In this document: positions 19,501 to 43,538 of the stretch, one piece after another | Numbering within the stretch: position 1 is the first letter of the stretch | Layout of the letters: each line of letters begins with the position of its first letter | IMG/VR virus record: IMGVR_UViG_3300032087_003955 | Span: 1 to 50,301 of that record | DNA: 50,301 bases | Strand: one strand, 5' to 3' | Source: a virus | The notes under the pieces: model-generated | Seen by the model: only the letters and a program-made list of their open reading frames with translations | Databases searched by the model: none | Told to the model about the DNA's origin: nothing | Made by a program: the position numbers and the translations under genes

Positions 19501-19507
19501 ATAAATA
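19500..19507 (+). promoter_or_regulatory. Late promoter box (AATAAATA)
   Basis: An NATAAATA match that overlaps the TAA stop of the upstream adhesin gene and lies about 45 bases before the next fibre start. A short GGGG/CCCC stem-loop (about 19525-19542) lies between the box and the AGGAG site. Confidence 0.55.
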
Positions 19508-19552
19508 TAATACAATCTTATATCGGGGGGATAGTGAACCCCAGGAGTATCA

Positions 19553-24738: not shown

Positions 24739-24741
24739 ATA
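24734..24741 (+). promoter_or_regulatory. Late promoter box (AATAAATA)
   Basis: NATAAATA match overlapping the TAA stop (24736-24738) of the protease gene and 18 bases before the start of the LamG protein. Confidence 0.55.
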
Positions 24742-24758
24742 ACTAAAAAAAGAGTCTC

Positions 24759-27626
24759 ATGGCAGATAAGAACTTTGGTGCAAAGAAGATAGAACTAATT
24801 GGTTCTTCTGGAGTACCGAATATAACTAGTCCTACTAATTTAAATCTTAATGCTAATACTGTTGCCATTAGCACGGATGTTACTATTGGTGGTAAAATTC
24901 AGTCTGATGTCATTGTAGGGACTGGTTATTCTGTAGGTATTGGTTCTACTCAACCAACAGAATCTTTAGATGTTCTAGAGAATCTTGCTGTAAAAGGTTC
25001 TGTAAGATTAGTTGGTGTTAATACTAGTCTTGCAGGAACAGCAGGAACAACTGGTGACATTAAGATGTTCCATGGTGCTCCATTTATTCATGATGGAACT
25101 GCTTGGAGAGAGTTCTATCTTAAAGAAGGTGTACCAGTAACTGAATCTGCTGATACTGAATGGGATAATGTTGTCTATAGAAACACTTTTGACGAAGGAT
25201 TTACTGATTTAAAATTTAATGCTGCAACTGATGCATCTAGTTCTGCTGATACTGTAGCAGCACCACGTAAATTTGGTGAAAAGGCATTACGATTACAAGA
25301 TGGTTATATCAGATATCCACATAGAAGTGAATATGTTTTTGAGAGTGATTGGACCATTGAAGGTTGGATGTATTTTGATACAATGCCTGTTGGTGGTGGA
25401 TCTGCAGGCTTTGGTGATGCATTAGTATCAAAATACGATTCTGCGGTTAGTAGTCGAGTTTGGGCACTTCAGGCTGATCTTCAGAATTCTGGATATACTG
25501 ATTTTAATTGGTATAACTATGATAAGCATGGCAATAGTTATGGTGGTACAGGAATTGGATCTGTTGCTAATTCAACTCTTCGTTATAATTGGAATCATTT
25601 TGCTTTAGTTAGAGAAAGTAGTAATGGTTCGATACATTTCTATTTTAATGGTGAAGAAAGTGATTTTACTAGCAGCAATCAAGTTATAGATAACAATATC
25701 AATGATTACTCTGGTGCAGAACTCTATTTTGGCAGAACTCGTTATCAGAATGACTGGGACGGACTTTTTGACGATATAAGAATTTCTACTGTTGCAAGAT
25801 ATATTAGTACTGAAGGAAGTTTTACTCCACCTACAGAACCATATCCAACCACAGGAACTTTAAGTGGTCCAGTTGATCCACCATATTTTGGTTCAGTATT
25901 GGAAGAAGTGATTGCCGACACAGAAATTTCAAGTCTTTCTAATGTCAGTAGTACTACTCCATCTTCAGGACAAGTTCTTAAGTGGAATGGAACTCAATGG
26001 GCGCCTGCAACTGATTTAGTTGGTGTTGGAACAATTGGTATTGAGCTTGCCGATCTATCCGTATCAACAAATGCAGTTGGAACAAATGCACTATCATATG
26101 ATAATACGACAGGAACCTTTACATTTACACCAACATCTTTAGTTGGATATGCTACTGAGGGATATGTTGATAATGCTGTATTGGGAATTGTAACTACTGG
26201 GCAAATTTCAGGATTTATTACTGCTGGTGCCTCAGGTGCAGGGTTCACTGCATTAACAGGTGCTGCTGCTGGTACATATGGTGATTTTGATAAATCAGCA
26301 CGAATAACAGTTGACAGTAATGGAAGAATTACTGGTATTACTGAAGTTGGAATAACAACAGATGGTGCTGGAATTGATGTCACTGGCATTTCTACATTTA
26401 ACGACAATGTTTCATTTGCTTCAACCATATTAGTTGATGGTGCTGTAAATCTTGCAGTTAATAATGCAACAATCACAGGCACTGCTGGTTCAACTGGTGA
26501 TATTAAGATGATTGGTGGTGCTCCATTCTTCTATGATGGATCTTCTTGGAGAGAGTTTGCTCTTGCAACTGGCACACCAGTTACTGTTTCTGAAGACACT
26601 GAGTGGGATAATGTTATCTTTAGAAACACTTTTGATTCATCATACACAGAAGTATCACAATATGCTAACTCTCAGGATTCCTTTGCTAATCAATCTTTAG
26701 TCACATCTCCTGTTAAGTATGGTGATAAAGCATTAAGACTTTCATCTGGGTATCTTAGATATCCTCATATTAGTGCTTATAGTTTTGAAGGAGAATGGAC
26801 TATAGAAGGTTGGGTATATATTGATTCATTGCCACCTGGTATTGGTGGAAATGCTGAGGCATTAGTATCAAAATATAATGGTTCAGTTAGTACTCAGGTT
26901 TGGGCAATCCTTGCAGAAAGAATAAATACTGGATATACTGATCTTAGATGGTATAACCATGATAAGCATAACAATTCTTATAGTGGTGTAGGTATTGCTT
27001 CTGTTAGTAATTCTGACATTTATCAAACTTGGTGTCATTTTGCTGTAGTCAGAGAACCTGATAATGGTTCAATTCATTGCTATATTAATGGTATAGAAAG
27101 TGAATTCACAACAAATGATCAAGTTATAGATAACAATATCAATGATTACTCTGGTGCAGAACTCTATTTTGGTCGTAGTTATTATCAAGGTACTGATTTT
27201 GATGGACTTTTTGATGATATAAGAATTTCCAATGTTGCAAGATATACTTCTGTTGGTATTTCTACCACAACAACATTTACTCCACCAACTCAGGCATATG
27301 CAACTTCAGGAACACTTACAGTTGCAACTGATCCACCAGGAGATAAGTATGGTGAGATTGGACTTGGAACTTCTCCAACTTGGACAGGAACATCTGGTGT
27401 TACTGTTACACAACAAGACCAAGGAGAGTATCGTCTAACATTTACATCTTCTTATACTAATGCTGATGATTATTTTGTTCTAACTCAACCAATGGATCAA
27501 GGATTTGCTGCATATGTTGGTGCTGCAAGATCTACTACACACGTAGACTTTACAATTAACAGACAAAGTAATAATGCAGGAGTAGATACTGGATCACTTG
27601 CAGTTCAAGTTACCAACCATCCATAA
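24759..27626 (+). CDS. Surface protein with two LamG/ConA-like domains
   Basis: A 955-aa protein starting MADKNFGAKKIELIGSSGVP. It contains two LamG-like jelly-roll domains, at nt about 25150-25800 and 26595-27245, each with DGYIRYPH/SGYLRYPH, WTIEGWMYFD/WTIEGWVYID and LFDDIRIS-VARY. These folds typically bind glycans. Between them lies a fibre-type segment (AGFTALTGAAAGTYGDF). Each lectin is preceded by the same module, GDIKM--GAPF--DG--WREF, so the whole unit was duplicated. Likely virion surface adhesin, expressed late. Confidence 0.75.
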   Translation: MADKNFGAKKIELIGSSGVPNITSPTNLNLNANTVAISTDVTIGGKIQSDVIVGTGYSVGIGSTQPTESLDVLENLAVKGSVRLVGVNTSLAGTAGTTGDIKMFHGAPFIHDGTAWREFYLKEGVPVTESADTEWDNVVYRNTFDEGFTDLKFNAATDASSSADTVAAPRKFGEKALRLQDGYIRYPHRSEYVFESDWTIEGWMYFDTMPVGGGSAGFGDALVSKYDSAVSSRVWALQADLQNSGYTDFNWYNYDKHGNSYGGTGIGSVANSTLRYNWNHFALVRESSNGSIHFYFNGEESDFTSSNQVIDNNINDYSGAELYFGRTRYQNDWDGLFDDIRISTVARYISTEGSFTPPTEPYPTTGTLSGPVDPPYFGSVLEEVIADTEISSLSNVSSTTPSSGQVLKWNGTQWAPATDLVGVGTIGIELADLSVSTNAVGTNALSYDNTTGTFTFTPTSLVGYATEGYVDNAVLGIVTTGQISGFITAGASGAGFTALTGAAAGTYGDFDKSARITVDSNGRITGITEVGITTDGAGIDVTGISTFNDNVSFASTILVDGAVNLAVNNATITGTAGSTGDIKMIGGAPFFYDGSSWREFALATGTPVTVSEDTEWDNVIFRNTFDSSYTEVSQYANSQDSFANQSLVTSPVKYGDKALRLSSGYLRYPHISAYSFEGEWTIEGWVYIDSLPPGIGGNAEALVSKYNGSVSTQVWAILAERINTGYTDLRWYNHDKHNNSYSGVGIASVSNSDIYQTWCHFAVVREPDNGSIHCYINGIESEFTTNDQVIDNNINDYSGAELYFGRSYYQGTDFDGLFDDIRISNVARYTSVGISTTTTFTPPTQAYATSGTLTVATDPPGDKYGEIGLGTSPTWTGTSGVTVTQQDQGEYRLTFTSSYTNADDYFVLTQPMDQGFAAYVGAARSTTHVDFTINRQSNNAGVDTGSLAVQVTNHP
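25040..27310 (+). repeat. Internal duplication of a LamG module
   Basis: Two copies of a roughly 830-base unit (about 25040-25860 and 26475-27310). The copies share 55 identical consecutive bases, 25678-25732 and 27118-27172, exactly 1440 bases apart. The rest is diverged at codon third positions and by small indels. Confidence 0.8.
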
Positions 27627-27634
27627 AATAAATA
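27627..27634 (+). promoter_or_regulatory. Late promoter box (AATAAATA)
   Basis: NATAAATA match one base after the stop of the LamG gene and about 57 bases before the next fibre start. AGGAGA follows directly but is far from an ATG. Confidence 0.5.
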
Positions 27635-27690
27635 GGAGATTGTGAGAAACTAAATACTCTTAAGAGATCCACCTAGCTAGGGAATATTAG

Positions 27691-30600
27691 ATGACTAGGA
27701 ATAGCAGAGAACTATCTCAATTTGCATCTTTTATTGACATTAAAGATGCCAATCAAAATATCGGTGTAATCACCTCAATGGTGATGAATCCTGGTGGTAT
27801 TGGGATTGGCAGTCCTGTAAGTGATTATCTAAGTGAAGCATCATCGAGAGGTGCTATTGACCCGTTAATTAACTGGAATAAATCATATCTACTAAACGAC
27901 GTTTATATTGAAGGAAACTTAAACGTTGATGGAGGTACTTCTGGTGCTGTAACTGGTGCTGGTGCAACATTCCCTAAGTTAAATGTAGGTGGACTAACAA
28001 CAACTAGGGATCTCGTAGTAGTTGGTGTCACAACACTTTCCCGTGACACTGGTATGGGAACGGTATATATTGGACAATCTGATGTTAATGTATCTGGAGC
28101 ACAAGGAACGAGTGTACAATCTAACGCAAACTTAGGTATTGCAGTTACTGGTCCTGGTGGTGGTGCTTTTGTATCTGGAGATGAAGATCTTGTACATGGT
28201 TTAGTTGTCATCGACAATGTTGGTGCAGCAGAAAATAATGAAGTAGCACTTTGGGTTTCTGGTAGAGTTCACTTTAATGGTGGTGATCCACTTATTACAG
28301 ATCCAATCAATGGTGGTGAAACTGGTCTTGGAACAGAATTTGTTGTTGTTCCAAAGGCACTTTACTACGATAAGGTTACTTTCTTAGAAGGCATTAATGT
28401 TGTAAAACAAGATTCTACTGAGCAGCAACCTGAAGGTGGGTCACTTGAAGCAGCTATTAAAGTTTTCAATGCAGAACGTGGAATGAATCCAGGTGTTGCA
28501 GAAACTGAAGCTCCTGCACAACCTGCAATCTGGACTAATGGTGGTATTGAAGCACTTCAATACGGAAGAATTGGTTATGGACTTAGTATTGGTGAATACA
28601 TGATGGTTGGTAATCAAGCACCAACCGCAAATACAGATTGGCAAGGAGATACTATTAGATCAGAGTTCCTGACTGATATTGAGATTAAAACTGCAAATGT
28701 TACTGTTGGTCTTTCAACTGGTGATAAGAGATATAATGATTCTCTAAACAATAGAACACTAATCGATTTACAAACTTCTCAGGTAACTCAACTATATCCA
28801 TATGTTCCTGGAGGTGGTGAAGCAAACGCAGGTATTGGTACAGAAGAAGGTCGTTTTAGTATTGCATACTTTCATGACTTAGAAGTTGGTCCTGATTTAT
28901 CAGACAGTCAGGCAAACATGGTTAACTTAAATGTTAGCCTTGGTTCCACAATGGCATTCTTAGACATTGGTGGTACTGGTGGAACTGAAGAGGATGAAAT
29001 CTACTTAGATGTCGGTCCTGGTAAAGCAAGATTTGCAAATATTGAAGGTAATGGTAACTTCTACCATACAGGTATTGCAACAATTTTAGGATCACTTAAT
29101 GTCATTAGTGATGGATATAATAATGCTTATGTTGCTACTGCTTTCCAAGCAAATAATGTTGATGTTTACAAGCAAGATGTAAATAATAGCACAAGTCCTG
29201 AGTTCTTCTACCCAGCAATGGCAAATGCTGGTATCTCTCAGACTGATGCTGGAGCACAAATGTTTGTGAATCCAGGTTTCTATCTAGATGCCTTTAGTAC
29301 AAGTCTCTTTGTTCATAACAACCTAAGTGTTCTTGGTACAGCAATTAATGCATCATTAGAAAATCCAGAATTAAGATTTGATTTATTAAACTATGGTGTT
29401 ACTGAACTTAATCTTGCAAGTCAAGCAAGATATATTGATATTGGTGAACCAGAATCTGCTGAGGGTGGTATTACATCTATCAGAAGTGAAGTTACTGAAT
29501 TAGTAAGACTTAGATTAAGACAAAATGATATTCAAGCATCTACTGGTGATACAGCAATTACTCTTAATGAAGATATTAACGTAAATATTGCTGGTTGGGT
29601 ACAAATTGGTGGTACTTATATTAAGTGTGATCAGAACGATATTAACATTGCAGATACATCATTAAGAGCTGATCTATTTAAGTCTGCAACTGATGTTGTT
29701 ATCGGTGCAGAAGATCTTGGTATTGCATCTATTAGAAACAATATAACTGAAGTTGAATTCTTAAGACTCAACAAAAATACTGTTCAAGCATCTGATGAAG
29801 CAACAGCATTTACCGTTGGTTTAGGTGGAACTCATGTATCTATTACTGGTGATATAATCGTTGGTGGCAATGATATCCAGACTGGATTTGGTATTACTAA
29901 CATTGAGATGGTTGGTGACACTAAAACCATTTTCTATGGTGACATTGAGATTCGTGGAAACGAGATCCTATCTTCTGATGGATCCGTCAACATGTTGATG
30001 TTTGATGGTCAAGAACTAACAAGTTTCACTGGTGCAATTAGAGTTGAAGGTGACGAAATTCGTGCTGGTACTGGTGATACCAACATGACTATGATTGGTG
30101 ATCAAGTCACTATATTTGCTGGAGCAATTGAAATTGATGGTGATGTTATCCGTGCAAGTAATGGTCAAGATAACATTACAATGGATAGTGACCTATTAAC
30201 AGCAGTTGCTGGTGATTTACGAGTAGGTACAGGCACTATGCGTGCTGGTGATGGAACTATTGCTATTACGATGGAAGGTGGTACTGGTAATGTTGCAATT
30301 TCAAGTGATGTAACTGCTAACAGTGCATTCTTCAATGGTCTTGAGGCAAGACTAAATGTTCAAGATGTTGACATTAGAGACAACCTCCTAACAATTGGTC
30401 TCATCGAAGATCCAACAAATGAAGGAACTTTGATTCCCCCAAATGTAAGTATTGGTAATAGTGGTGATGTTGGTCTTGTAATGGCAAGATATGATGTTGG
30501 ACTTTCAACTCATAAGTATGCTGCAATTTACTATGATAACTCTGCTGGAAGAGTTGCTATTCGTACTGATGTAGAAGATGCTGGTGTTGGTGCTGGAAGA

Positions 30601-30780
30601 GATCGTTATCTACTAGCAAATGGATTACCCTCCGAATTAGAAGTACAAAATCTGTACGTTAATTATAACACAACTCTTGGTATAAAGACAATCTTTGAAG
30701 CAGGAAATATTGACACAGGTGAAGAAGTAATTGATGTACTAAATGTTGTCAATGTAGAAATTGATGCGGGTACATTCTAG
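27691..30780 (+). CDS. Tail fibre protein with beta-repeat shaft, 1029 aa
   Basis: N-terminus MTRNSRELSQFASFIDIKDA is followed by fibre-shaft motifs such as VYIEGNLNVDGG. Nt about 29850-30330 hold about five short repeats of roughly 30 residues that alternate an IEI-G-EI strand with an I-M-GD strand: GDIEIRGNEILSSDG, GAIRVEGDEIRAGTG, GAIEIDGDVIRASNG. This looks like a beta-helix or triple-beta shaft. The C-terminal 150 residues (PPNVSIGNSGDVGLVMARYD) resemble the conserved end of cyanophage fibre proteins. A sigma70-type promoter starts two bases after its stop. Confidence 0.7.
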   Translation: MTRNSRELSQFASFIDIKDANQNIGVITSMVMNPGGIGIGSPVSDYLSEASSRGAIDPLINWNKSYLLNDVYIEGNLNVDGGTSGAVTGAGATFPKLNVGGLTTTRDLVVVGVTTLSRDTGMGTVYIGQSDVNVSGAQGTSVQSNANLGIAVTGPGGGAFVSGDEDLVHGLVVIDNVGAAENNEVALWVSGRVHFNGGDPLITDPINGGETGLGTEFVVVPKALYYDKVTFLEGINVVKQDSTEQQPEGGSLEAAIKVFNAERGMNPGVAETEAPAQPAIWTNGGIEALQYGRIGYGLSIGEYMMVGNQAPTANTDWQGDTIRSEFLTDIEIKTANVTVGLSTGDKRYNDSLNNRTLIDLQTSQVTQLYPYVPGGGEANAGIGTEEGRFSIAYFHDLEVGPDLSDSQANMVNLNVSLGSTMAFLDIGGTGGTEEDEIYLDVGPGKARFANIEGNGNFYHTGIATILGSLNVISDGYNNAYVATAFQANNVDVYKQDVNNSTSPEFFYPAMANAGISQTDAGAQMFVNPGFYLDAFSTSLFVHNNLSVLGTAINASLENPELRFDLLNYGVTELNLASQARYIDIGEPESAEGGITSIRSEVTELVRLRLRQNDIQASTGDTAITLNEDINVNIAGWVQIGGTYIKCDQNDINIADTSLRADLFKSATDVVIGAEDLGIASIRNNITEVEFLRLNKNTVQASDEATAFTVGLGGTHVSITGDIIVGGNDIQTGFGITNIEMVGDTKTIFYGDIEIRGNEILSSDGSVNMLMFDGQELTSFTGAIRVEGDEIRAGTGDTNMTMIGDQVTIFAGAIEIDGDVIRASNGQDNITMDSDLLTAVAGDLRVGTGTMRAGDGTIAITMEGGTGNVAISSDVTANSAFFNGLEARLNVQDVDIRDNLLTIGLIEDPTNEGTLIPPNVSIGNSGDVGLVMARYDVGLSTHKYAAIYYDNSAGRVAIRTDVEDAGVGAGRDRYLLANGLPSELEVQNLYVNYNTTLGIKTIFEAGNIDTGEEVIDVLNVVNVEIDAGTF

Positions 30781-30865: not shown

Positions 30866-32587
30866 ATGGCAAAAGGAAATACTGGTAATACTAAAGAGTA
30901 TGTTCAATGCCTAGCATTTGCTCATTTTGCCAATAATAAATATCCAAATAAAAAAGAAGATCAAGAAGAACATAAAAATTCTTTTTATAATCTTTTTGTT
31001 ACTTCTGCAGATCGAAAAAAATATGATATTGAAAAGTTAAATCTCAGAGAATATAAACAATATGTGGGGAAAAAATTTCCTTTCATGAGGTGTTTGAGAG
31101 ATTTTAAAACAAAAGTTGGTGGAAGAGGTAAATCTAAAGGAAATATTACTGCGGATACTACAGTACAAAAAGTATATGATGTTGCATTAGAACTTTATAA
31201 ATCCAAAGTCATTGGTCAAAACTGGGAAAATTATGAATTTCTAGATCAAACTGATACTTTTACTCAAACTGTAAAAGATGCTGCATTAGAAAAAATTAAA
31301 AATGTTTTAGGAATAAAATTTAAACTTGACATGCTTGCAAGTTTTGATATGTTTATTGTTCATAAACAAAAAAAGCAGCAAATATTAGATGAAATAAACA
31401 CTCATATGATAAATGCAGATGAGGCAACTATATTGAGAAACTATTCGTTAAATCAGCACACTTATAGAACTATATTAAATCGACATTTTAAATCGTCTTC
31501 AAATACAAGATCTTTAGTTGCCGTTTCACTTAAATTGCCAGGAACTATTGAACAAAAAAAATATATAAACATAATTGGAACAGAAAATGTAAAGAAAGAA
31601 CTATCTGAATATATTGATCCATATACTAAGTTTTTAACTCTAGCAATATCATCTAAACCAAATGAGTTAAAGTCATTGATAGAGAATTTAATAAAAATAG
31701 AATATGGGCAATTTAGAACTAATTCTAATGTATTAACTTGGGAATTGCCAGTAACTTTTAGGTATAAAGTAGCAGCACAAAAGGTATTTGGTAGAGATAT
31801 CGAACCATTAAGTGATATGAATTATAAAATAGTTTTTCTTGCTCAAGGATATGGTGCTGGATGGAATGGATTTGTGAAGGTTGGAAAACAAGGTCCACCT
31901 TGGACTGGTGGAGGTGCAGCATCAACATTTGAATTTTTCTATGAACAATATCCAGAATACTCTAAGGTTATACAGAAATTAGTTCAATTAAGAGCAAAAG
32001 CTTTTAATTATGTTTTAACTGGTAAAGAAAATGGAAAAATAGATACTTCTACTTTTTCAAATAAGTTGAAATCACTATATCAAGCAGCATTAAGAGAAAT
32101 AACAACTAGAAAAATACTAGTTAATACTGTTGGTGTAAAATATAATAATGTTGAGAAATTTTTTAATCTTTATGATGAGGAAAATAAAAGTAAAGATAGT
32201 ATGACAATGTATCAAGTTGCCGTTATTAATTTAGTTAAGGGAAAAATAAATCCTTCAATTAAAATAACAAACAAATACGCAAGTTTTAATATGAATGTTG
32301 GTAAAAAATCAGAAAGAAAAGCAACATCTTCTGAAACTCAAGAAAGAATAAAAGCACATTATGCACATGCACAACTTGCGTGGTTTACTTTTATTGGTGG
32401 AAAAAATTACCAAACATTCCTTAAACAAAGAATGTTTTTGACCATATATGGAGTTATCAGTAAAAAAGGATATAAGATATTTGATTACAATAAAAACATT
32501 GCCACAGTTAAAAGTGCAATTACTGCATCAATGAAAGGTATGCCTAAAGCAGCATTTGATTCTGCTCCTCACCTGTTACTGTCATGA
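30866..32587 (+). CDS. Unrecognised Lys-rich protein, possibly nuclease-like
   Basis: A 573-aa protein, conspicuously AT-rich and Lys/Asn-rich compared with the fibre genes before it and the helicase after it. I cannot name a family with confidence. One region resembles a PD-(D/E)xK-type core: hydrophobic strand SFDMFIVHK (Asp161), then RSLVAVSLKLP (Lys223), with a Gly-rich stretch later (KQGPPWTGGGAASTFEFF). Some phage nuclease-like proteins pair an acidic ADI-F strand with a SLK strand in this way. It has its own sigma70-type promoter. A role in host DNA attack or defence is possible but unproven. Confidence 0.6.
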   Translation: MAKGNTGNTKEYVQCLAFAHFANNKYPNKKEDQEEHKNSFYNLFVTSADRKKYDIEKLNLREYKQYVGKKFPFMRCLRDFKTKVGGRGKSKGNITADTTVQKVYDVALELYKSKVIGQNWENYEFLDQTDTFTQTVKDAALEKIKNVLGIKFKLDMLASFDMFIVHKQKKQQILDEINTHMINADEATILRNYSLNQHTYRTILNRHFKSSSNTRSLVAVSLKLPGTIEQKKYINIIGTENVKKELSEYIDPYTKFLTLAISSKPNELKSLIENLIKIEYGQFRTNSNVLTWELPVTFRYKVAAQKVFGRDIEPLSDMNYKIVFLAQGYGAGWNGFVKVGKQGPPWTGGGAASTFEFFYEQYPEYSKVIQKLVQLRAKAFNYVLTGKENGKIDTSTFSNKLKSLYQAALREITTRKILVNTVGVKYNNVEKFFNLYDEENKSKDSMTMYQVAVINLVKGKINPSIKITNKYASFNMNVGKKSERKATSSETQERIKAHYAHAQLAWFTFIGGKNYQTFLKQRMFLTIYGVISKKGYKIFDYNKNIATVKSAITASMKGMPKAAFDSAPHLLLS

Positions 32588-34404: not shown

Positions 34405-35082
34405 ATGTCAAACTATTCATTATATTGTGATGTTCCAGAAGAAAGTGATGATTATCTAATTCCATTGTTTTCTACACCTTTGCTGCATTTAAAAGTTTCT
34501 GATTGGGAAGAAAAAAAGAAAGAACTATTAGAAATCTTTGAAAAAAGAAAATCTGATCCTGAAGCATGGCAAGTTGGGGCAAGAAGAGATAGTGCTTTAG
34601 ATGTAGAAACTGATTATCACCATAATTACGATAATAATCTTGATTACAGTGAAGATATTACTGAAATTTTTCAAGATGAACTAGAGATTCTTGCAGATAC
34701 TTTTCAATGTAGTGTAGAAGTTTGCACTACATGGTTTGAAAAGGCAAAAAAAGGTAAAATGCATCAAGTACATAATCATGGTATAAGTGGTTTTAGTGCT
34801 GTATGCTTCATTCAATTCGATCATAAAAAACATACACCAACTGTATTTTTAAATCCTAATCTTGCAGATGTTGAAATTGCTAATGCGCTTCCACCTAGGA
34901 TTAGAGAAGGATCATTGATATTTTTCCCTTCTTATCTTCTTCACTATACTGCTCCAAATGAGAGTGATACTGATAGGATAATTCTTTCATTTAACACAAT
35001 TGTAGAGTATGAGCACTTTACATATGAGGAAGAAAGAAAGATGAATGCTCAGGATGGAGAATATTTTACTGAAGATGTCTAA
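34405..35082 (+). CDS. 2OG-Fe(II) oxygenase-like protein 1
   Basis: A 225-aa protein with the layout of the 2OG-FeII_Oxy_5 type common in cyanophages: His123/His125 in QVHNHGISGF, distal His180 in FFPSYLLHYTAP, and Arg191 in DTDRIILSFN for the 2-oxoglutarate carboxylate. The first metal motif is HxH rather than the usual HxD. Such enzymes use Fe(II), O2 and 2-oxoglutarate to hydroxylate a substrate; the substrate is unknown. It begins the oxygenase cluster and overlaps the next oxygenase by eight bases. Confidence 0.7.
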   Translation: MSNYSLYCDVPEESDDYLIPLFSTPLLHLKVSDWEEKKKELLEIFEKRKSDPEAWQVGARRDSALDVETDYHHNYDNNLDYSEDITEIFQDELEILADTFQCSVEVCTTWFEKAKKGKMHQVHNHGISGFSAVCFIQFDHKKHTPTVFLNPNLADVEIANALPPRIREGSLIFFPSYLLHYTAPNESDTDRIILSFNTIVEYEHFTYEEERKMNAQDGEYFTEDV

Positions 35083-35638
35083 ATCATTTATTCTCCGTAA
35101 TTTTTTGTTTGAAGATAATGTAAAAGATCTTAATCAATGGACTCTTGAGAATTGTCAACAAAAGTTCTTTGAAGATGCTGGGATGGATCCTGATAACCCT
35201 GGCACAAGATTTACAACGAGATTTCCAAATGAATCTGTTGCCCCAAATATAGATTATCCTCTATCTGCTTTTGCTGTTAAGCAAAGAATTATTGATTACT
35301 TTGATCTAAAACACTATAAAAATCCACCATCATATAGTCATGGAATAGTAAATGGTATTGGATATGAAGGTGGTAGAATAGAGCAGCATATTGATCCTAC
35401 ATATTATCCAAATACAAAAACTGTTCACTTTAATGCTATTACGCAGCAAGCAGATAGGGGTGGACATACTATAATTGATGGTGTAGAATATAATGACATT
35501 CAATCAACAGATCTTTTGATTTATCAAGTATCTGAAGTTTACCATGAAGTTACTCCAACACACGGTAAAACTCCAAGAATTTTATGGGTATTTGGATTTT
35601 GTTTAGATGATAAAAAAATAAGGGAAATATTCTTATGA
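35075..35638 (+). CDS. 2OG-Fe(II) oxygenase-like protein 2
   Basis: A 187-aa protein starting at ATG 35075 inside the end of the previous gene; an in-frame ATG at 35045 overlaps further and is less likely. Residues fit the prolyl-hydroxylase-like core: His105-x-Asp107 in EQHIDPTYY, distal His157 in YHEVTP, Arg168 in TPRILWVFGF. All key residues are present, so it may be active. It ends with an ATGA overlap into the next oxygenase. Confidence 0.7.
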   Translation: MSKSFILRNFLFEDNVKDLNQWTLENCQQKFFEDAGMDPDNPGTRFTTRFPNESVAPNIDYPLSAFAVKQRIIDYFDLKHYKNPPSYSHGIVNGIGYEGGRIEQHIDPTYYPNTKTVHFNAITQQADRGGHTIIDGVEYNDIQSTDLLIYQVSEVYHEVTPTHGKTPRILWVFGFCLDDKKIREIFL

Positions 35639-36387
35639 AAGTAAACTCAAAACTTTTTGAAACCAATGATCTGTCAAACATGAACATCATTGAGTTTGTT
35701 GATGGTGATAAAGTATCCAATCTTTTTTGGATGGATAACTTTTATAAAAATCCAGATGATGTTTATGATTATCTTCTATCGATAGAACCTCCATTATGGA
35801 AAGTTGGTCCAGAATGGAATTTGGGCAGAGGAACACTTAACACAAAGTATTTTGAAGATCGTAGACATCAACTAGATGTTGATGAAATTCTCCCTGTAAT
35901 CAATTCTCTATCCAAACTTTGTGGACAGGAAGCATTGGATGAGCAAATTATCACAAATTTCTCTAGATTCAGTAAAATAAAAGAAAATCCATATCATGAT
36001 CATTATTGGTGGCCTCATCATGATGGTGGATATAATGGTATTTGTTATTTCTCAAAACATGATGAGATTGGAACAAATTTGTATAAACCATTGATTACTA
36101 ATGATCCTGAGTTACTTCCATTGGATGAAAATGGTGGTGTAAGAGATGAACATGCTCTTCCATGGACACCTAAAAAATATTGGGAAAAGGTAGTTAGTTT
36201 TAGATCAAAATTCAATCGTTTTGTTATGTTTGAAGGATCATACTATTATCATAGTATGGACTTAACAGGAAAGAATTATTTTGCTAATCATTGGAGTAAT
36301 GCAGAATATAGAATTAACCAAGTATTCTTCTTTGGCGATTTCTTTAAATATCAAGGTTGGTATAGAGATCAATGCAAAGAAACTTGA
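35635..36387 (+). CDS. 2OG-Fe(II) oxygenase-like protein 3
   Basis: A 250-aa protein. Metal and cosubstrate residues are visible as His128-x-Asp130 in WWPHHDGGYNG, distal His206 in GSYYYHSMD and Arg226 in EYRINQVFFFGD. The region before it is Trp/Tyr-rich. It resembles the phage family often annotated as DUF6445, which is predicted to be a 2OG-Fe(II) oxygenase; this name is from memory. Starts by ATGA overlap with the previous gene. Confidence 0.65.
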   Translation: MKVNSKLFETNDLSNMNIIEFVDGDKVSNLFWMDNFYKNPDDVYDYLLSIEPPLWKVGPEWNLGRGTLNTKYFEDRRHQLDVDEILPVINSLSKLCGQEALDEQIITNFSRFSKIKENPYHDHYWWPHHDGGYNGICYFSKHDEIGTNLYKPLITNDPELLPLDENGGVRDEHALPWTPKKYWEKVVSFRSKFNRFVMFEGSYYYHSMDLTGKNYFANHWSNAEYRINQVFFFGDFFKYQGWYRDQCKET

Positions 36388-36399
36388 TAGGAGATAATA

Positions 36400-37062
36400 A
36401 TGACTGAACATAGATTTAGACCAGAAATAAGTCCAAATGATGATGATTTTGAAGAAATTACAATATCAAACATCACCCAGAAAGATTTATTTGTCACACC
36501 ATTTTTTGATTTTGAGTTAGATTTTGATAACAATGAAGTTGTTGAAGAATGTTTAAACTTGAAAGAAAAATATCCTAATGGAGTTAAAAAATCTAATTGG
36601 GGTGGTGGATGGCAAAGTCAGGTATATGAACTTCATAATATAAGGAGAACAACAACACCTGTAATTCAAAATCTGGCAAGAAATGTTATTGATCTAACTA
36701 ACCATATGCTAGAACAATGCAATGCTCAACAGAGAGTTAGTGATAATGATATTGGTTGGTGGATTAACATCAATAAAGGTATGGGATATAATGTTCATCA
36801 TACTCATCCTGGATGCAGTGTAATTGGAATATATTATCCAAAAATACCAAAAAATATGCAAGAGACTGAAGGAATGTTTTCATTGATTAGAACTGATGCA
36901 ATGAATCATAATAGTGCATTTGCTGATATTCCAGATAATTGTGAATATTTTATCAGACCAGAAGAAAAGCATTTGTATCTCATGCCATCAACAGTTGCAC
37001 ATTATGTGACACCACACTTTAGTGATGAAGAAAGAATATCCATCGCATTTAATATTGGATAA
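36400..37062 (+). CDS. 2OG-Fe(II) oxygenase-like protein 4
   Basis: A 220-aa protein, 12 bases after the previous gene with AGGAGA upstream. It shows His134-x-His136 in YNVHHTHPGCSVIG, distal His201 in MPSTVAHYVTPH and Arg212 in EERISIAFNIG. This is the HxH variant, as in protein 1, and the two look like members of one subfamily (2OG-FeII_Oxy_5). A late promoter box overlaps its stop, separating it from the fibre-tip genes. Confidence 0.7.
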   Translation: MTEHRFRPEISPNDDDFEEITISNITQKDLFVTPFFDFELDFDNNEVVEECLNLKEKYPNGVKKSNWGGGWQSQVYELHNIRRTTTPVIQNLARNVIDLTNHMLEQCNAQQRVSDNDIGWWININKGMGYNVHHTHPGCSVIGIYYPKIPKNMQETEGMFSLIRTDAMNHNSAFADIPDNCEYFIRPEEKHLYLMPSTVAHYVTPHFSDEERISIAFNIG

Positions 37063-37644: not shown

Positions 37645-38922
37645 ATGTCAATTTTACAAGCAGATGGTATTGAATTTGGTAATGGTACTGTATTAAATAC
37701 ATTTTACGGTATTATTCCACAAAGCACTACAATGGTGTTTTATCAGGCATCAGCACCTACTGGGTGGACACAAGATGCGACTGAAAATAATAAAGGACTA
37801 CGAGTTGTAGATGGTAGTAGTGGATTTCAAGGAGGAAGTTCTGGTGGTTTAATTGCTTTTACAGATTTATTCAATGACAGCACAGGTGCAGAAGCAAATT
37901 GTACTTCAACAATTACTGGTTCTGTAGATGATACAACCTTAACAGAAGCACAAATACCAGGACACACACATAATACTGGAAGCAATCCTAACTCATACAG
38001 AAGTTCGGCATCATCATCACCATTCAGATCTGATAATAGGCAACCAAGAGGTTATGCAATTAGAGGTGAGACTAGAGTTGTCTTTGAGAATAGAGTTATC
38101 GTTAATTTTAGACAACCAATTAACGTAAGACAACCTCGTAACTATAGACAAGAGCAAAGACAGAGAGTTCCATTAAGAAATCGTCAACCAAGAAACTTTA
38201 GGGTTAGATACCCTGCACGTTCTAGAAGACCAGTACCTTTTCGTGCTCCTGTTCCTTTCCGTGTTCCTCTAAGATGGAGGAATCCAATTAACTATCGTCG
38301 TGATGATGGAAGATGGAGAAGACCCATTCAGCAACAATTCCGTTCTTCTTGGAGAAATAATGATAGATTCCCTAGAAGAAGAGGTGGAAGACGTAGAAGG
38401 AATGATAGAGAACCAAGAAGAAGAGATAGAAGGGGTACTAACTGGTGGAACTGGAGACAAAGACGGCAAATTAGAAGACCTAGATCTTATAGACAGAGAA
38501 GATCATTCCGTCAACCAAGAAACTTTAGACAACCTCGTAACTTTAGACAGAGGAGATCATTTAGAAATAGACAACCTAGAACATTTAGAGTGAGGTATGC
38601 GTTCAGACAAAGAAACGCTTTCCGTGTCAATATTCCATTTAGGGTAACAGTTCCACAAAGAAATCCTGCATCTTATAGACAACCAAGAACATATCGTGTT
38701 GTACAAAGATATCCTTTAGTTTCTAACGTTAGGGTATCACAAAGAACACTATCTCCTGGTGGTACTATTAGAGCAAATAATACTCAAGCACCAGCAACAT
38801 CATCAACTGGTGGTGGTCAAGCACATACTCATCCATTTACTGGAAGTGAAGTTAGTTTTGTTGCCTCTCTATCTCCATTGAGAGTACAATACATTGACGT
38901 TATCCTTTGCAGTTTGGATTGA
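37645..38922 (+). CDS. Fibre-tip protein with long Arg-rich insertion
   Basis: A 425-aa paralogue of the previous protein. Residues 1-115 and 382-425 align with it, including PGHTHNTG (His107, His109) and AHTHPFTG (His394, His396) and the same C-terminal YIDVILC. Between the two HxH sites lies a 266-residue insertion (116-381) made of Arg-rich repeats such as RQPRNFRQPRNFRQRRSF and VPFRAPVPFRVP. I count about 79 Arg, about 10 acidic residues and no Lys in it. The insertion occupies the place where gp37/gp12-type tips carry receptor-binding loops, so it is probably the host-contact surface. Confidence 0.75.
   Translation: MSILQADGIEFGNGTVLNTFYGIIPQSTTMVFYQASAPTGWTQDATENNKGLRVVDGSSGFQGGSSGGLIAFTDLFNDSTGAEANCTSTITGSVDDTTLTEAQIPGHTHNTGSNPNSYRSSASSSPFRSDNRQPRGYAIRGETRVVFENRVIVNFRQPINVRQPRNYRQEQRQRVPLRNRQPRNFRVRYPARSRRPVPFRAPVPFRVPLRWRNPINYRRDDGRWRRPIQQQFRSSWRNNDRFPRRRGGRRRRNDREPRRRDRRGTNWWNWRQRRQIRRPRSYRQRRSFRQPRNFRQPRNFRQRRSFRNRQPRTFRVRYAFRQRNAFRVNIPFRVTVPQRNPASYRQPRTYRVVQRYPLVSNVRVSQRTLSPGGTIRANNTQAPATSSTGGGQAHTHPFTGSEVSFVASLSPLRVQYIDVILCSLD
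37990..38787 (+). repeat. Arg-rich degenerate tandem repeat
   Basis: Encodes residues 116-381 of the long fibre-tip protein. Units are variations on R-Q-P-R-(N/T/S)-(F/Y)-R and on (V/A)-P-F-R. At DNA level, copies such as 38511-38546 repeat the pattern caaccaagaaactttagac / caacctcgtaactttagac with synonymous changes. Confidence 0.8.
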
Positions 38923-38958: not shown

Positions 38959-39345
38959 ATGACTAAGGCAACTGGCAAGTGGTGTCCACTTATTAAAAAA
39001 GATTGTGTTGAGCATAAGTGTTCTTGGTATACACATATTGCTGGACAAGATCCGAATACTGGTAATCAAGTAGATCATTGGTCTTGTGCAATTCAATGGA
39101 TGCCAATGCTGATGATTGAAAACAGTCAGCAGCAACGATCTACAAGTGCTGCTGTTGAATCATTCCGTAATGAAATGGTCAAAGCAAATGAGAGTAATCA
39201 GCAAATGTTAGATGCTGTTGGTAACATGTATCTAGACATGTGTGAAGCACAGGGTGTTAATGTATCAGAATACTTTGAACCCTTGGAAGGTATAGATAAT
39301 GAAGAAGAAAACTTACTACCCGAGTCTGACGAGGAGAAACAATGA
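38959..39345 (+). CDS. Cys-motif protein, 128 aa
   Basis: N-terminal 45 residues hold four conserved-looking cysteines: WCPLIKKDCVEHKCSWY and then DHWSCAIQW, i.e. C-x6-C-x4-C and a fourth about 22 residues on. This could bind zinc or an iron-sulfur cluster. The rest is helical with an acidic C-terminus (NEEENLLPESDEEK). It overlaps the coiled-coil gene as ATGA. Function not recognised. If it carries Fe-S it might connect with the iron-dependent oxygenases nearby, but that is only a guess. Confidence 0.6.
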   Translation: MTKATGKWCPLIKKDCVEHKCSWYTHIAGQDPNTGNQVDHWSCAIQWMPMLMIENSQQQRSTSAAVESFRNEMVKANESNQQMLDAVGNMYLDMCEAQGVNVSEYFEPLEGIDNEEENLLPESDEEKQ

Positions 39346-40688
39346 GAATTTCTATTATTCCTGAAGATAAAAAAATTATTGTTGATAAAAAAACGGTAGA
39401 TCTTGAGGATGATGCACCTTGGGATTTTGATGATGAGCATATTCATGCTATTCAGTGGAAAGATGGTAGAGGTTCTTTAGAATATGAAGATGTTCCTGGT
39501 GAAAGTCCTGTACCAAATAAAATCTTTGGTGAAGATGAATTTGAAACCATTGTTCAACCATATCTCGATTATTACAATACCTTCTTAAACCTTTATGAGC
39601 AGAAAGAGCTTGCTGCTGCTATTGCAGAAGAGGAGAATCTTGCTGCTCAGATTGAAGAACTAAATCTTGATAAACTAGAGAAAGAAGCACAACTTGTCAT
39701 CATTGAAGATCTTCAAAGACAAAATAAAGAACTTCGTCAGGAAAAGGATGTTCTTGCTGATGAAAAGTCTAGATTAGAGCAAGCAGAATTTTTCGATAAA
39801 CAAACTGCTGTTATTCAACTGGAAAGAGAGAAAGCAGCAAGAGAAAGTGAATATAGTGCTCTAGAACAGCAGAAAGCAGATGAATTTTTTCAAAAGAAAT
39901 CTCTAGAACTTGCTAAAAAGTATGATAATCTTCTAGAAGATTTTGAAAAAGAAAAAGAAGCATTTATTGAAGAGAGAAAACAGTATCAAGAACTTCTTGC
40001 ACAGGAACGTGAGAAGATGGAAAGAGAATCAGAACTTCTTGAGAAGCAGATTCTTGAAGATGAGCAAGAAGCAATGCTCAAGAGAGCACAAGAAGATAAA
40101 GTTCGTGAACTTGAAAATGAGCAACTTGAACTTATCCGAGCAGAACTTGAGATGCAAAGAGAAAGTTTAGAAATTCAAACTCTAGAAAATCAAGAGTTTA
40201 TCAATGAATTTAAAGATAAACTTACAGATCATGCTTCAAAACTTGAGATGGGTCAAGAATTTGTAGAGCAAGAGTTGGAAGAAAAACGTCGTTATCTCTT
40301 GAAGACTTCTGAAGAAATTGATCGTAAGATGGAAGAGGAGCAAGCATACGATGAAATGGATCTTGCTCTTGAATTAGAATATGAAAGACTTGAAGAAGAG
40401 TATAGAGAAAAGCAAAAGCAAGAAATTCTTGATTCAAAACTATTTGATCCTGAAGCACTACAGAAAGAAACTCAAGAAATCTTTGAACAAAATATTCAAA
40501 GACAAAAAGTTGAATCTGGTGCAGAATATGATGTTAATGATGTCCTAAATCTCATTGATCAAATTGATCCACAACAACTTTATACTACTCTCACAAATGA
40601 TGAAAGAGAGGATAATGAGTTCCCTGTAGATAAAGCAGTTAAGTGGTTTGCAGAACTTAAGAAAGTTATTGACGAAAACCAATCCTGA
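39342..40688 (+). CDS. Coiled-coil protein with fibre-chaperone-like N-terminus
   Basis: A 448-aa protein. The first 60 residues (MRISIIPEDKKIIVDKKTVD, EHIHAIQWKDGRGSLEYEDV) match a small beta domain found in phage proteins encoded beside fibre genes and thought to assist fibre assembly. Residues about 80-375 are an almost continuous Glu/Lys/Gln/Leu-rich coiled coil, far longer than in usual members. The C-terminus (YDVNDVLNLIDQIDPQQLYT) looks globular. With two fibre-tip genes just upstream, a fibre trimerisation chaperone is the best inference. Confidence 0.55.
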   Translation: MRISIIPEDKKIIVDKKTVDLEDDAPWDFDDEHIHAIQWKDGRGSLEYEDVPGESPVPNKIFGEDEFETIVQPYLDYYNTFLNLYEQKELAAAIAEEENLAAQIEELNLDKLEKEAQLVIIEDLQRQNKELRQEKDVLADEKSRLEQAEFFDKQTAVIQLEREKAARESEYSALEQQKADEFFQKKSLELAKKYDNLLEDFEKEKEAFIEERKQYQELLAQEREKMERESELLEKQILEDEQEAMLKRAQEDKVRELENEQLELIRAELEMQRESLEIQTLENQEFINEFKDKLTDHASKLEMGQEFVEQELEEKRRYLLKTSEEIDRKMEEEQAYDEMDLALELEYERLEEEYREKQKQEILDSKLFDPEALQKETQEIFEQNIQRQKVESGAEYDVNDVLNLIDQIDPQQLYTTLTNDEREDNEFPVDKAVKWFAELKKVIDENQS

Positions 40689-40698
40689 TTAAACAACA

Positions 40699-42105
40699 AT
40701 GAATAGTGATTTGCTCAGGAACAACTATCTGGTTGTTCCTAATTTTATTACTCCAGAACATGCCGAAAAATTAAGAACAGAGTTTCATTTAACTGACTCA
40801 AAGTTTAAGTTTAGCGGAGACCCACAAGCACCAAATTCTGCTGCTGTCTGGAATTATCTTCCTGCATTAGAATTGCTTGCCAATAAAACATCTCATGTTT
40901 CTGAGATTGTTGGTGAGACTGTTCTCCCTACTTACGTTTATTCTAGAATTTATCGTAACGGAAGTGTATTAACAAAGCACACAGATCGTCCTGCATGTGA
41001 AGTTTCTATGACTTTACATTTGGGTGGTGATAAACCTTGGGCAATCTGGATTGAAACGCCAGAAAGAGAAAAAAGATGTGTCTCTTTGAATCCTGGTGAT
41101 GCTATGCTATACTTGGGATGTATTGCTCCACATTGGAGAGATAAATTTGATGGTGAACACTATACTCAATTCTTTTTACATTATGTAAGAAGTCGTGGAT
41201 ATTGTGGTGAAGCATATTTTGATAGAGAACGTGATCTTGATGAAGATTTTGACATTTTAAGAGAGGAGTATGAAGAAATGAAAAACAGATTTACAGGTTC
41301 ATCTAATAATGTAATTCTTCCTAAAAAGTATAGAGAGGAGAAAGAAAATAGATTCAAACGTCGTGAATTAAGATCTAGAGAGAAAGAAAACCTTGAGATC
41401 GTAGAACTTCAAGATGATGATAAAGAATTCGTCGATTTTGATGAAGTTATTGTTGCCAATAAAAAGTATGAAAAGTTTCTAACAAAGAAAGATTCTCCTG
41501 AACTTATTGCAAAACCAGAAAAGAAGGGTGGTTTGTCTCAAAAGACTTTAGAAGATTTTGTTGTGCATCTTGAGGAAGCAATTGATCCTGATTTTTGCGA
41601 TCAAATTCTAGAGCAATATGTGTATACAAATTACTGGGAACCAACATTAACTGGTAATGGTCATGATCCTGGAGCAAGAAAATGTGCATTTATTCCTATT
41701 TCTGATCCAGCAGTTCTTCAAGAAGATAATCAAGAAGAACGTAAAGAAATCGACAATAAGTTATTTGAAATTGTCCAAGATTTGATTAAGCAATATCAGG
41801 ACATGCACCCCGACTTTGATTTGGAAATTCAAGAAGATTCTGGTTATGAACTTCTACGTTACGAGGAAGGTGATTTTTACGTTCAACATACAGATTCATT
41901 CAAAGAACAACCCAGAGCATTGACTATTATTATGTCAATGAATAACGGATTTGAAGGTGGTCAAGTTGCACTATTTGATAGAGAACTTATGTATAGTCTT
42001 GATTGTGGTGATGTTCTTATGTTCCCTTCAAACTTCATGTATCCTCATGAAATTCTTCCAGTTAAATCTGGAGTTAGATTTTCAATCATTACTTGGGTTG
42101 TATGA
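40699..42105 (+). CDS. Two-domain 2OG-Fe(II) oxygenase-like protein
   Basis: A 468-aa protein with two oxygenase units. The N-terminal unit has His94-x-Asp96 in LTKHTDRPACEV and a distal His145 in APHWRDKF. The C-terminal unit is a prolyl-4-hydroxylase-like core with His397-x-Asp399 in YVQHTDSF, FEGGQVALFD, distal His450 in YPHEILPV and Arg460. A charged Lys/Glu/Arg linker (about 195-270) joins them. Two fused units could act on two sites or one could be structural. Its stop overlaps the next oxygenase start (ATGA). Confidence 0.75.
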   Translation: MNSDLLRNNYLVVPNFITPEHAEKLRTEFHLTDSKFKFSGDPQAPNSAAVWNYLPALELLANKTSHVSEIVGETVLPTYVYSRIYRNGSVLTKHTDRPACEVSMTLHLGGDKPWAIWIETPEREKRCVSLNPGDAMLYLGCIAPHWRDKFDGEHYTQFFLHYVRSRGYCGEAYFDRERDLDEDFDILREEYEEMKNRFTGSSNNVILPKKYREEKENRFKRRELRSREKENLEIVELQDDDKEFVDFDEVIVANKKYEKFLTKKDSPELIAKPEKKGGLSQKTLEDFVVHLEEAIDPDFCDQILEQYVYTNYWEPTLTGNGHDPGARKCAFIPISDPAVLQEDNQEERKEIDNKLFEIVQDLIKQYQDMHPDFDLEIQEDSGYELLRYEEGDFYVQHTDSFKEQPRALTIIMSMNNGFEGGQVALFDRELMYSLDCGDVLMFPSNFMYPHEILPVKSGVRFSIITWVV

Positions 42106-42764
42106 ACTTAAATGATAGTGACTTCATTGGGGTTTATGATAATGTATTGTCTCAAAATGTTTGTGAAAAAATTACAAAATATTTTGATAAAACATACATA
42201 GATCCTGATGATGTGCCAGAAGATTCAAAGTTAAGAACATCTAAGGGTTTTAATGAAACTCCAAATGGTGGATTAACTAGGCATGATTATCAAATATTTG
42301 TAAATTCAGATGAACCTGTATTTGAGATCATAAACATGTGCGTCAATAAATGCTGGGAATTGTATAGAAAAAAATACTGGGTTATTGATGCTATTGACAT
42401 GGAGTTTGAGGAAGTTAAACTTCAGAAAACACCACCAAGAGGTGGATTTCATGATTGGCATTGTGAGATAAATGATCTTGCTGTTGTTGACAGATGTATG
42501 GTTTGGATGTTATATTTGAATGACATTCCCGAAGGTGAGGGTGAGACTGAATTTCTATGGCAAGGTCTTAGAGTTCAACCAAAAGCAGGCAGAATGGTAA
42601 TTTGGCCAGCATTTTTTACTCACACTCATAGAGGTAATGCAGTTTATTCAATGAATAAGTATATCGCAACTGGTTGGGGTCACTATTATTGTGATAATAG
42701 CAAAGTAGAAGATTACTATGAATTGGATAAAGATTCAAAAAATTACACCAGAAGATATTACTAA
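42102..42764 (+). CDS. 2OG-Fe(II) oxygenase-like protein 6
   Basis: A 220-aa protein starting at ATG 42102 in the ATGA overlap; an in-frame TTG at 42093 is less likely. The metal motif is His120-x-Glu122 in FHDWHCEIND, an accepted HxE variant. Distal His174 or His176 lies in FFTHTHRGNAVYS, and Lys186 may replace the usual Arg. EGEGETEFLWQ is the typical strand before the distal His. Its stop overlaps the next ATG (TAATG). Confidence 0.7.
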   Translation: MNLNDSDFIGVYDNVLSQNVCEKITKYFDKTYIDPDDVPEDSKLRTSKGFNETPNGGLTRHDYQIFVNSDEPVFEIINMCVNKCWELYRKKYWVIDAIDMEFEEVKLQKTPPRGGFHDWHCEINDLAVVDRCMVWMLYLNDIPEGEGETEFLWQGLRVQPKAGRMVIWPAFFTHTHRGNAVYSMNKYIATGWGHYYCDNSKVEDYYELDKDSKNYTRRYY

Positions 42765-42973
42765 TGGCATTATCTGATCAAGTAAGAGATTCTTTAGACT
42801 CAGCATCACATCATTTGCGAGAAGCACTAGCATTTGCTGCTAGGAATGAAAAACCATTCATTCTTAAAGAAATTGGTAACATGATTCATAGTATTGATGT
42901 AATTCAGGATGCTGATGAGTTATTAGATAATGTTGATGATATTCTAAAACGTTATGATGAAGATAAAGAATGA
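42764..42973 (+). CDS. Small helical protein, 69 aa
   Basis: ATG overlaps the previous stop by one base, and its own end overlaps the next oxygenase gene by about 17 bases. The protein is predicted helical by eye (SLDSASHHLREALAFAARNE; ADELLDNVDDILKRYDEDKE). No motif recognised. Being translationally coupled on both sides, it may be a partner of the flanking oxygenases. Confidence 0.6.
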   Translation: MALSDQVRDSLDSASHHLREALAFAARNEKPFILKEIGNMIHSIDVIQDADELLDNVDDILKRYDEDKE

Positions 42974-43538
42974 CCCTTTTCCTCATATTATTATAGAGGA
43001 TTACTTTACAGATGTAGAATATAAACTAATTTGGAGAGAAATTGATTTTCTTTCAAGTAAATTGAAGACACCTGATGATTTTTCTGCTGCACAAAATGAC
43101 GATGGTGAATATCTAACAGATTCTAGTGGTTTATCACTGGATAGCACATATTTTGATCGTTCAGTGTCTGATATTCTTAGGATATTGGATGAGAAACTAT
43201 TTTCTCAAGAGTTTTATGATTCTATCATTGATGAAAATGAGTATTGGGAATACTTTCTAAGAGCAAATAAAGATTTTACTAAACTTCGTAAGTATACAAG
43301 TGAGCAGCATTATCAACCACACCAAGATATGTGGGTTAATGTATTAGTTTCTACAACATTGCAGAAAGATGATGTTGAAGGTGGTGATTTATTCTTTCCC
43401 AATCATGCTTACATGATTCCTACTAAAGATAACCAAACCATTATCTTCCCTGGTTGGGTGAAACATGGTGTGACTTCTGTGATGAGCAATGATAGGTATG
43501 CCATCACCAAGTTTATCCACTCTGCTGTGCCAGAATGA
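42957..43538 (+). CDS. 2OG-Fe(II) oxygenase-like protein 7
   Basis: A 193-aa protein from ATG 42957 (an adjacent in-frame ATG at 42954 is equally possible). It opens FPHIIIEDYFT, usual for this family, and has His122-x-Asp124 in YQPHQDMWVNVL, GGDLFFPNH, distal His170 in FPGWVKHGVTSV and Arg180 in NDRYAITKFI. All catalytic positions are filled. Its stop lies in the loop of a stem-loop (43526-43549), so this gene closes the oxygenase run. Confidence 0.75.
   Translation: MKIKNDPFPHIIIEDYFTDVEYKLIWREIDFLSSKLKTPDDFSAAQNDDGEYLTDSSGLSLDSTYFDRSVSDILRILDEKLFSQEFYDSIIDENEYWEYFLRANKDFTKLRKYTSEQHYQPHQDMWVNVLVSTTLQKDDVEGGDLFFPNHAYMIPTKDNQTIIFPGWVKHGVTSVMSNDRYAITKFIHSAVPE

Follow-up and report, generated by a model that had tools for sequence, protein, structure and literature searches.

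The long tip protein encoded in the window (the whole stretch of 50,301 nucleotides analyzed, IMG/VR virus record IMGVR_UViG_3300032087_003955, a marine cyanobacterial virus) carries an Arg-saturated, Lys-free insert between two HxH motifs, and within this insert Pro and the aromatic residues keep to alternate positions, which in homologues separates a face occupied by Arg without Lys from a face that accepts both. We consider it about evenly poised whether the insert folds as a long domain of the stem-tip-stem type, resembling D11 of T4 gp37, which would form a trimeric, receptor-probing structure binding anionic glycans; our confidence in the stem-tip-stem fold is moderate, and in the function as a receptor-probing glycan binder it is low. 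The coordinates of the features are collected in Table 1.

Table 1. Features of the tip gene region within the window.
Feature	Position	Strand	Remarks
Long tip protein, 425 aa	37645..38922	+	ORF, synteny, homologues
Long tip protein, layout	37645..38922	+	N-terminal collar-like head, HTH, Arg-saturated insert, HTH, C-terminal return strand
HxH motif 1 (H107-T108-H109)	37963..37971	+	predicted axial metal site; nearly invariant across family
HxH motif 2 (H394-T395-H396)	38824..38832	+	nearly invariant across family
Arm A, aa 126-217	38020..38295	+	Pro even 13/13, aromatics odd 11/11
Central tip, aa 218-263	38296..38433	+	DDGR flip, RRRGGRRRRNDREPRRRDRR
Arm B, aa 264-357	38434..38715	+	Pro odd, aromatics even except W267
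Short paralogue, 178 aa	37100..37636	+	head and tail as in long tip, HTH to HTH ~35-38 aa; profile match 9qgo, 9nxk
Upstream gene run, order conserved	34405..37062	+	2OG-Fe(II) oxygenases at 34405 and 36400 (Pfam PF13759)
Conserved downstream pair	38959..40688	+	Cys-rich CPLIKKDC protein (128 aa), acidic coiled-coil protein (448 aa, 127 D/E)

Positions 37990-38787 (aa 116-381, 266 residues) encode 79 Arg, 10 Asp or Glu, 26 Pro, 32 Phe, Tyr or Trp and not a single Lys, which agrees exactly with the Arg, acidic and Lys counts of the first-pass annotation. The same annotation described 266 extra residues lying exactly between the two HxH motifs; this was correct as to the position, but not the length, as from HTH to HTH (inclusive) the long protein has 290 aa vs. 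41 aa in the short paralogue, which gives a net gain of 249 aa, and the remainder of the insert takes the place of linker. The net charge of the insert is about +69 per chain, i.e., about +207 per assumed trimer. Within the remaining ORFs of the window, Lys constitutes 56% of the sum of Lys and Arg (773/1373), and compared with them the absence of Lys beside 79 Arg has a p value of ~10−28; when compared with the large structural ORFs only (15613-30780; 98 Lys and 192 Arg), this value is ~10−14. All of these large fibre/virion ORFs contain more Arg than Lys, while in most other ORFs of the window Lys exceeds Arg, and this preference is a milder form of the bias of the insert.

In an AT-rich genome AAA (Lys) is a cheap codon, and Arg contains four nitrogens, compared with two in Lys. 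The Arg residues of aa 116-381 are encoded by AGA (56), CGT (13), AGG (9), and CGG (1), and tandem repetition of the insert DNA is weak (TRF indicated 18-mers in ~2 copies). Over the Arg-rich insert, in another frame, there is also a 97-codon acidic ORF (38300-38593), open in several homologues, which is probably a by-product of the AGA-rich codons.

The closest cultured relative of the virus is Synechococcus phage S-SCSM1 (Kyanoviridae); in the 22-46 kb region, 71% can be aligned with it, at 82% DNA identity. Its protein QFG06509.1, annotated as 'short tail fiber protein', is the direct orthologue of the long tip protein, with shared neighbours and an insert of equal length (77 Arg, no Lys), and differs in its second motif, which is HNH; the S-SCSM1 short paralogue bears the note 'virion protein'. 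In the available part of the report on S-SCSM1, which lists 45 virion proteins identified via mass spectrometry, no remark on the Arg-rich tip was found (PMC9602691). Further homologues of the long tip protein were drawn from IMG/VR.

The insert is free of Lys in each of the 11 close homologues aligned, which together contain 816 Arg. Within the 76 Arg-majority columns of the close-homologue alignment, 38 cells are occupied by a residue other than Arg, and in none of them is it Lys. Moreover, amongst 51 columns composed exclusively of Arg (ten sequences), 39 make use of more than one codon and 19 of both AGR and CGN codons, whilst dN of the insert is mostly lower than dS across homologue pairs (dN/dS ~0.2-0.4). 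As judged from these substitutions, the insert is a real translated protein under purifying selection, and the earlier claims that Arg itself is selected and that the bias is not a codon artefact are supported. The low dN relative to dS, the mixed Arg codons, and the lack of Lys among the replacements remove the reading of this region as a frameshifted or untranslated stretch, as well as a codon artefact. The insert would represent a clean natural case of selection that keeps guanidinium and not positive charge, in an AT-rich genome.

The same alignments bear on the proposal, also put forward in the first-pass annotation, of a hypervariable tandem-repeat array altering the host range via recombination. 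The sequence is indeed repeat-like, and arms A and B are direct partial duplicates (47% similarity over 92 aa). However, in nearly all close homologues the HTH motifs are 284 aa apart (283 aa in L012), indels of close homologues are confined to aa 230 and 261-262, i.e., to the tip, and in several pairs dN of the insert is lower than dN of the N-terminal head (e.g., 0.12 vs. 0.36 for L008/L032). With constant length and no indels in the arms, the close homologues show neither variation of the repeat copy number nor the features of an expandable tandem-repeat adhesin, and the proposal is largely refuted and very improbable. The partial duplication that connects the arms is an old one. Mirror duplication of the arms was also considered and rejected, as the mirror symmetry of the sequence is weak and the similarity is direct instead.

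The distribution of Pro in the window protein is strictly ordered: all 13 Pro residues at aa 126-214 occupy even positions and all 14 at aa 227-383 odd ones, the aromatic residues are found at the opposite parity (with one exception, W267), and the parity flips at RRDDGR (aa 218-223). The Pro parity score is 0.755, compared with a maximum of 0.485 among 2000 shuffles. This pattern recurs in all homologues, where the number of main flips varies from zero to two, and parity is kept for ~100-340 residues (~340 aa in L015); in ten proteins, an even spacing was found for 369 of the 419 Pro-Pro pairs, and many of the spacings are not divisible by 6. Parity breaks between the first HxH motif and arm A, and within the other fibre ORFs of the window it is mostly near-random. 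Such an unbroken, long-range alternation implies long two-faced structures, predicted to be extended β-strands, one face of which is turned inward and the other outward, and argues against both disorder and a hexapeptide solenoid. In the latter respect, the window protein does not fit a hexapeptide left-handed β-helix: only 11 of its 32 Pro spacings are divisible by 6, and spacings of 2, 4, 8, 10, and 14 are common. As regards disorder, a protamine- or RGG-like polycation binding nucleic acid or polyphosphate would be in line with the RRRGGRRRR centre, the strong net charge, and the AlphaFold2 (AF2) prediction of no structure, but it leaves the even-only spacing of Pro and aromatics over hundreds of residues, the fixed length, and the midpoint symmetry unexplained, and the insert sits within a tip protein; we hold it to be distinctly improbable.

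The hypothesis that the two faces differ was formed on the window protein and then tested on four divergent homologues (L015, L067, L068, and L016), three of which contain Lys. Their Pro-faces together hold 126 Arg and no Lys, vs. 67 Arg and 15 Lys on the other face (Fisher p 4 × 10−7, the sequences being related), so the selection for Arg is specific to one face. As many as 11 of the 15 Lys residues come from L015, and in this protein alone, applying plain parity, the R:K ratios are 31:0 vs. 16:11 (p 6 × 10−5). Free replacement of Arg by Lys in homologues, named in the first-pass annotation as contradicting the selection for Arg, is borne out in part only: the distant L015, L067, and L068 carry these 15 Lys, but on the non-proline face alone. 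Judging from these proteins, Lys is compatible with the structure, though not with the Arg positions of the Pro-face; a single Lys at Pro-face parity, in L057, is localized near the insert end, outside the arms. The alphabet of the Pro-face is narrow (Arg, Pro, Asn, and Ser constitute ~86%; in arm A, Arg 43%, Pro 25%, and Asn 13%), and in arm A it is also the better conserved of the two faces (entropy 0.43 vs. 0.76, p 0.006); for arm B the contrast between the faces is not significant (p 0.22). The Pro-face is polar, the opposite face is richer in Phe, Tyr, and Val, and we infer the former to be the outer side. The Lys, Asn, and Thr residues of the L015 Y-face look exposed, which may suggest that the Y-face is not fully buried and that the inner and outer sides could be reversed.

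The central tip is the densest Arg and Gly stretch, midway between both HxH motifs in all homologues; in each of the 11 homologues measured, whose inserts range from 275 to 381 aa, the densest 25-mer falls at a relative insert position of 0.47-0.53. The arms of the window protein are 92 and 94 aa long and the tip ~46 aa. In T4 gp37, domain D11 (stem 882-931, tip 932-959, stem 960-1009) is inserted in the collar domain D10, its tip touches LPS and OmpC, and F970 lies in the trimer core (PMC6957217). As predicted from its sequence, the long tip protein resembles it in the collar-like head, the HxH sites, the stem-tip-stem insertion with near-equal arms, and the distal tip flanked by the HxH motifs. 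The differences concern the length of the arms (~92 residues here vs. 50 in T4), the number of metal sites (two HxH motifs vs. seven sites), and the arms themselves, here built of R/P versus aromatic repeats; also, a sequence search of the PDB with a threshold as loose as E 10 did not retrieve T4 gp37. Homology to solved tail-fibre heads was found with the profile of the paralogue, which matched 9qgo and 9nxk over the head and the HxH flanks (E 5 × 10−12, covering three chains of 9qgo, and 2 × 10−5, respectively). Neither of them carries the Arg-rich insert, and the corresponding tip of 9qgo has a few dozen residues. The search of the long tip protein against Pfam (E ≤ 1, tail-collar families included) gave no relevant match, and its monomer AF2 models, based on 13-row alignments, reached pLDDT of 34 and 38, with no usable fold.

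In the favoured T4 gp37-like arrangement, the chain would leave the collar-like head, pass the first HxH motif, run for ~92 residues as an alternating β-strand, turn in the Arg/Gly-dense tip and come back on a strand of equal length, reaching the second HxH motif and the collar. Three chains, as assumed here, would wrap into a needle bearing two metal sites, the stem of which would measure roughly 25-30 nm. The F/Y/V/Q face would pack inward, and the outward face (Arg ~43%, Pro ~25%, and Asn/Ser ~18%) would display a guanidinium array. This array, together with the Arg tip, could make many weak, reversible contacts with anionic glycans (uronate, sulfate, or other carboxylate polysaccharides) at adsorption. 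Lys would be barred from the Pro-face because bidentate contacts with anions and the packing of Arg against Pro would require guanidinium and not charge alone. Given the favoured fold, polyvalent contact with anionic surface glycans seems plausible, although it falls somewhat short of an even prospect. Binding of anionic glycans or LPS had been considered in the first-pass annotation, and its LPS part is weakened here: the LPS described for marine Synechococcus (WH8102 and CC9311) lacks phosphate, KDO, and heptose and is largely neutral (PMC4515613), which makes LPS phosphate an unlikely ligand for a picocyanobacterial host, while other anionic glycans are possible.

The main rival to glycan contact is a purely structural Arg/Pro face. 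The needle would be retained and Arg kept for folding, with Arg-Pro-Asn ladders holding the stem (Arg stacked on Pro and from strand to strand, with sulfate or chloride as possible pins), the Pro-face possibly turned inward, and the central tip alone binding the receptor. This is in agreement with the very narrow alphabet of the Pro-face and its higher conservation in arm A, with the tolerance of Lys on the other face only, with the largely neutral LPS of the described Synechococcus hosts, and with the occurrence of the parity law and Lys scarcity also in repeat proteins lacking HxH motifs (see below). An inward surface with 43% Arg, however, would need stoichiometric anions, it is the other face that bears the aromatics and Val, and the T4 core holds F970. 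We regard such a folding role as rather unlikely, though deserving serious attention.

Runs of 2OG-Fe(II) oxygenase-like genes are localized on both sides of the tip genes (34405-37062 and 40699-43538). In the upstream run, ORF 35045 has no Pfam match and ORF 35635 matches phrog_1644, and all four S-SCSM1 counterparts of this run are annotated as 2OG-Fe(II) oxygenases; in ORF 40699, a part named 'ferrochelatase' in PHROGs is joined to a 2OG-oxygenase domain. The insert could be a substrate of these enzymes, with Pro, Arg or Asn of the R-x-P repeats hydroxylated, as in collagen, which would rigidify or diversify the fibre. In the window as well as in close homologues, the tip genes have such genes on either side, S-SCSM1 has 24 of them (PMC9602691), and Pro and Asn sit on the conserved face. 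Nevertheless, the L017 tip, devoid of the Arg insert, also adjoins a 2OG-like gene, and 2OG genes are common elsewhere in cyanophages, where other roles were suggested by the authors (PMC3037559). We hold the substrate reading to be improbable, and treat hydroxylation of Pro, Arg or Asn by the flanking oxygenases as a testable extra.

A gene for the Cys-rich protein (CPLIKKDCxxxxC...) is found directly 3' of the HxH tips (38959-39345 in the window, ~3458 in L003, and 5120 in L017) of marine phages that are unrelated, podovirus CRP-361 among them; it is possibly a tip assembly or metal-loading factor. The acidic coiled-coil protein (39342-40688) has a conserved N-terminal domain (HAIQW) and resembles, in position and start, CRP-361 gp41, annotated as a tail assembly chaperone. 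The idea that it pairs specifically with the Arg insert was dropped, since in L017 an acidic coil occurs although the insert is absent. Upstream, ORF 30866-32587 encodes a Lys-rich protein of 573 aa, is AT-rich (28% GC), and has no confident family; S-SCSM1 has nblA at the corresponding place.

Similar repeats had been mentioned in the first-pass annotation for tips of other marine phages. With a DNA pattern for Y-Q-A-R-x-P, used to find repeat proteins, 13 viral contigs (L038-L050) were identified, encoding repeat proteins that follow the parity law and have few or no Lys in their repeats. The repeats themselves are thus confirmed, but not their identity as tips, as these proteins have no HxH motifs. 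They share with the window insert the even spacing of Pro, the placement of Pro and aromatics on opposite faces, and the preference for Arg over Lys, and differ in having periods of 8/10 residues, lower charge, and no HxH flanks. Throughout this wider marine set, the Pro-face is composed of Q/T/R/N and the other face of Y/A/F/G, a contrast clearer than in the window protein. The Y-R-x-P triple DNA pattern gave chance matches only, tblastn with consensus repeats gave composition noise or nothing, and Pfam and PHROGs, run on the window protein only, do not name this class. Tentatively, it is possible that marine phages share an undescribed class of long alternating β-strands, with an Arg/Pro/Asn face opposed to an aromatic face and Lys barred from the Arg/Pro face, which would provide a stiff stem and guanidinium tip in fibre tips and stand-alone fibre proteins, and a polyvalent anion/glycan surface at seawater ionic strength. 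Even spacing, fixed faces, and Arg without Lys would constitute a rule for marine phage fibres that the libraries used do not recognise; such a parity rule would predict the fibre fold and its orientation, and split fixed stems from variable tips. The proteins of L038, L039, L041, L047, and L048 are stand-alone, have 400-446 aa with ~40 Arg, no Lys and almost no acidic residues, and are built of repeats, YQARxP / QGQTPFTY, in which the distances between Pro residues are even.
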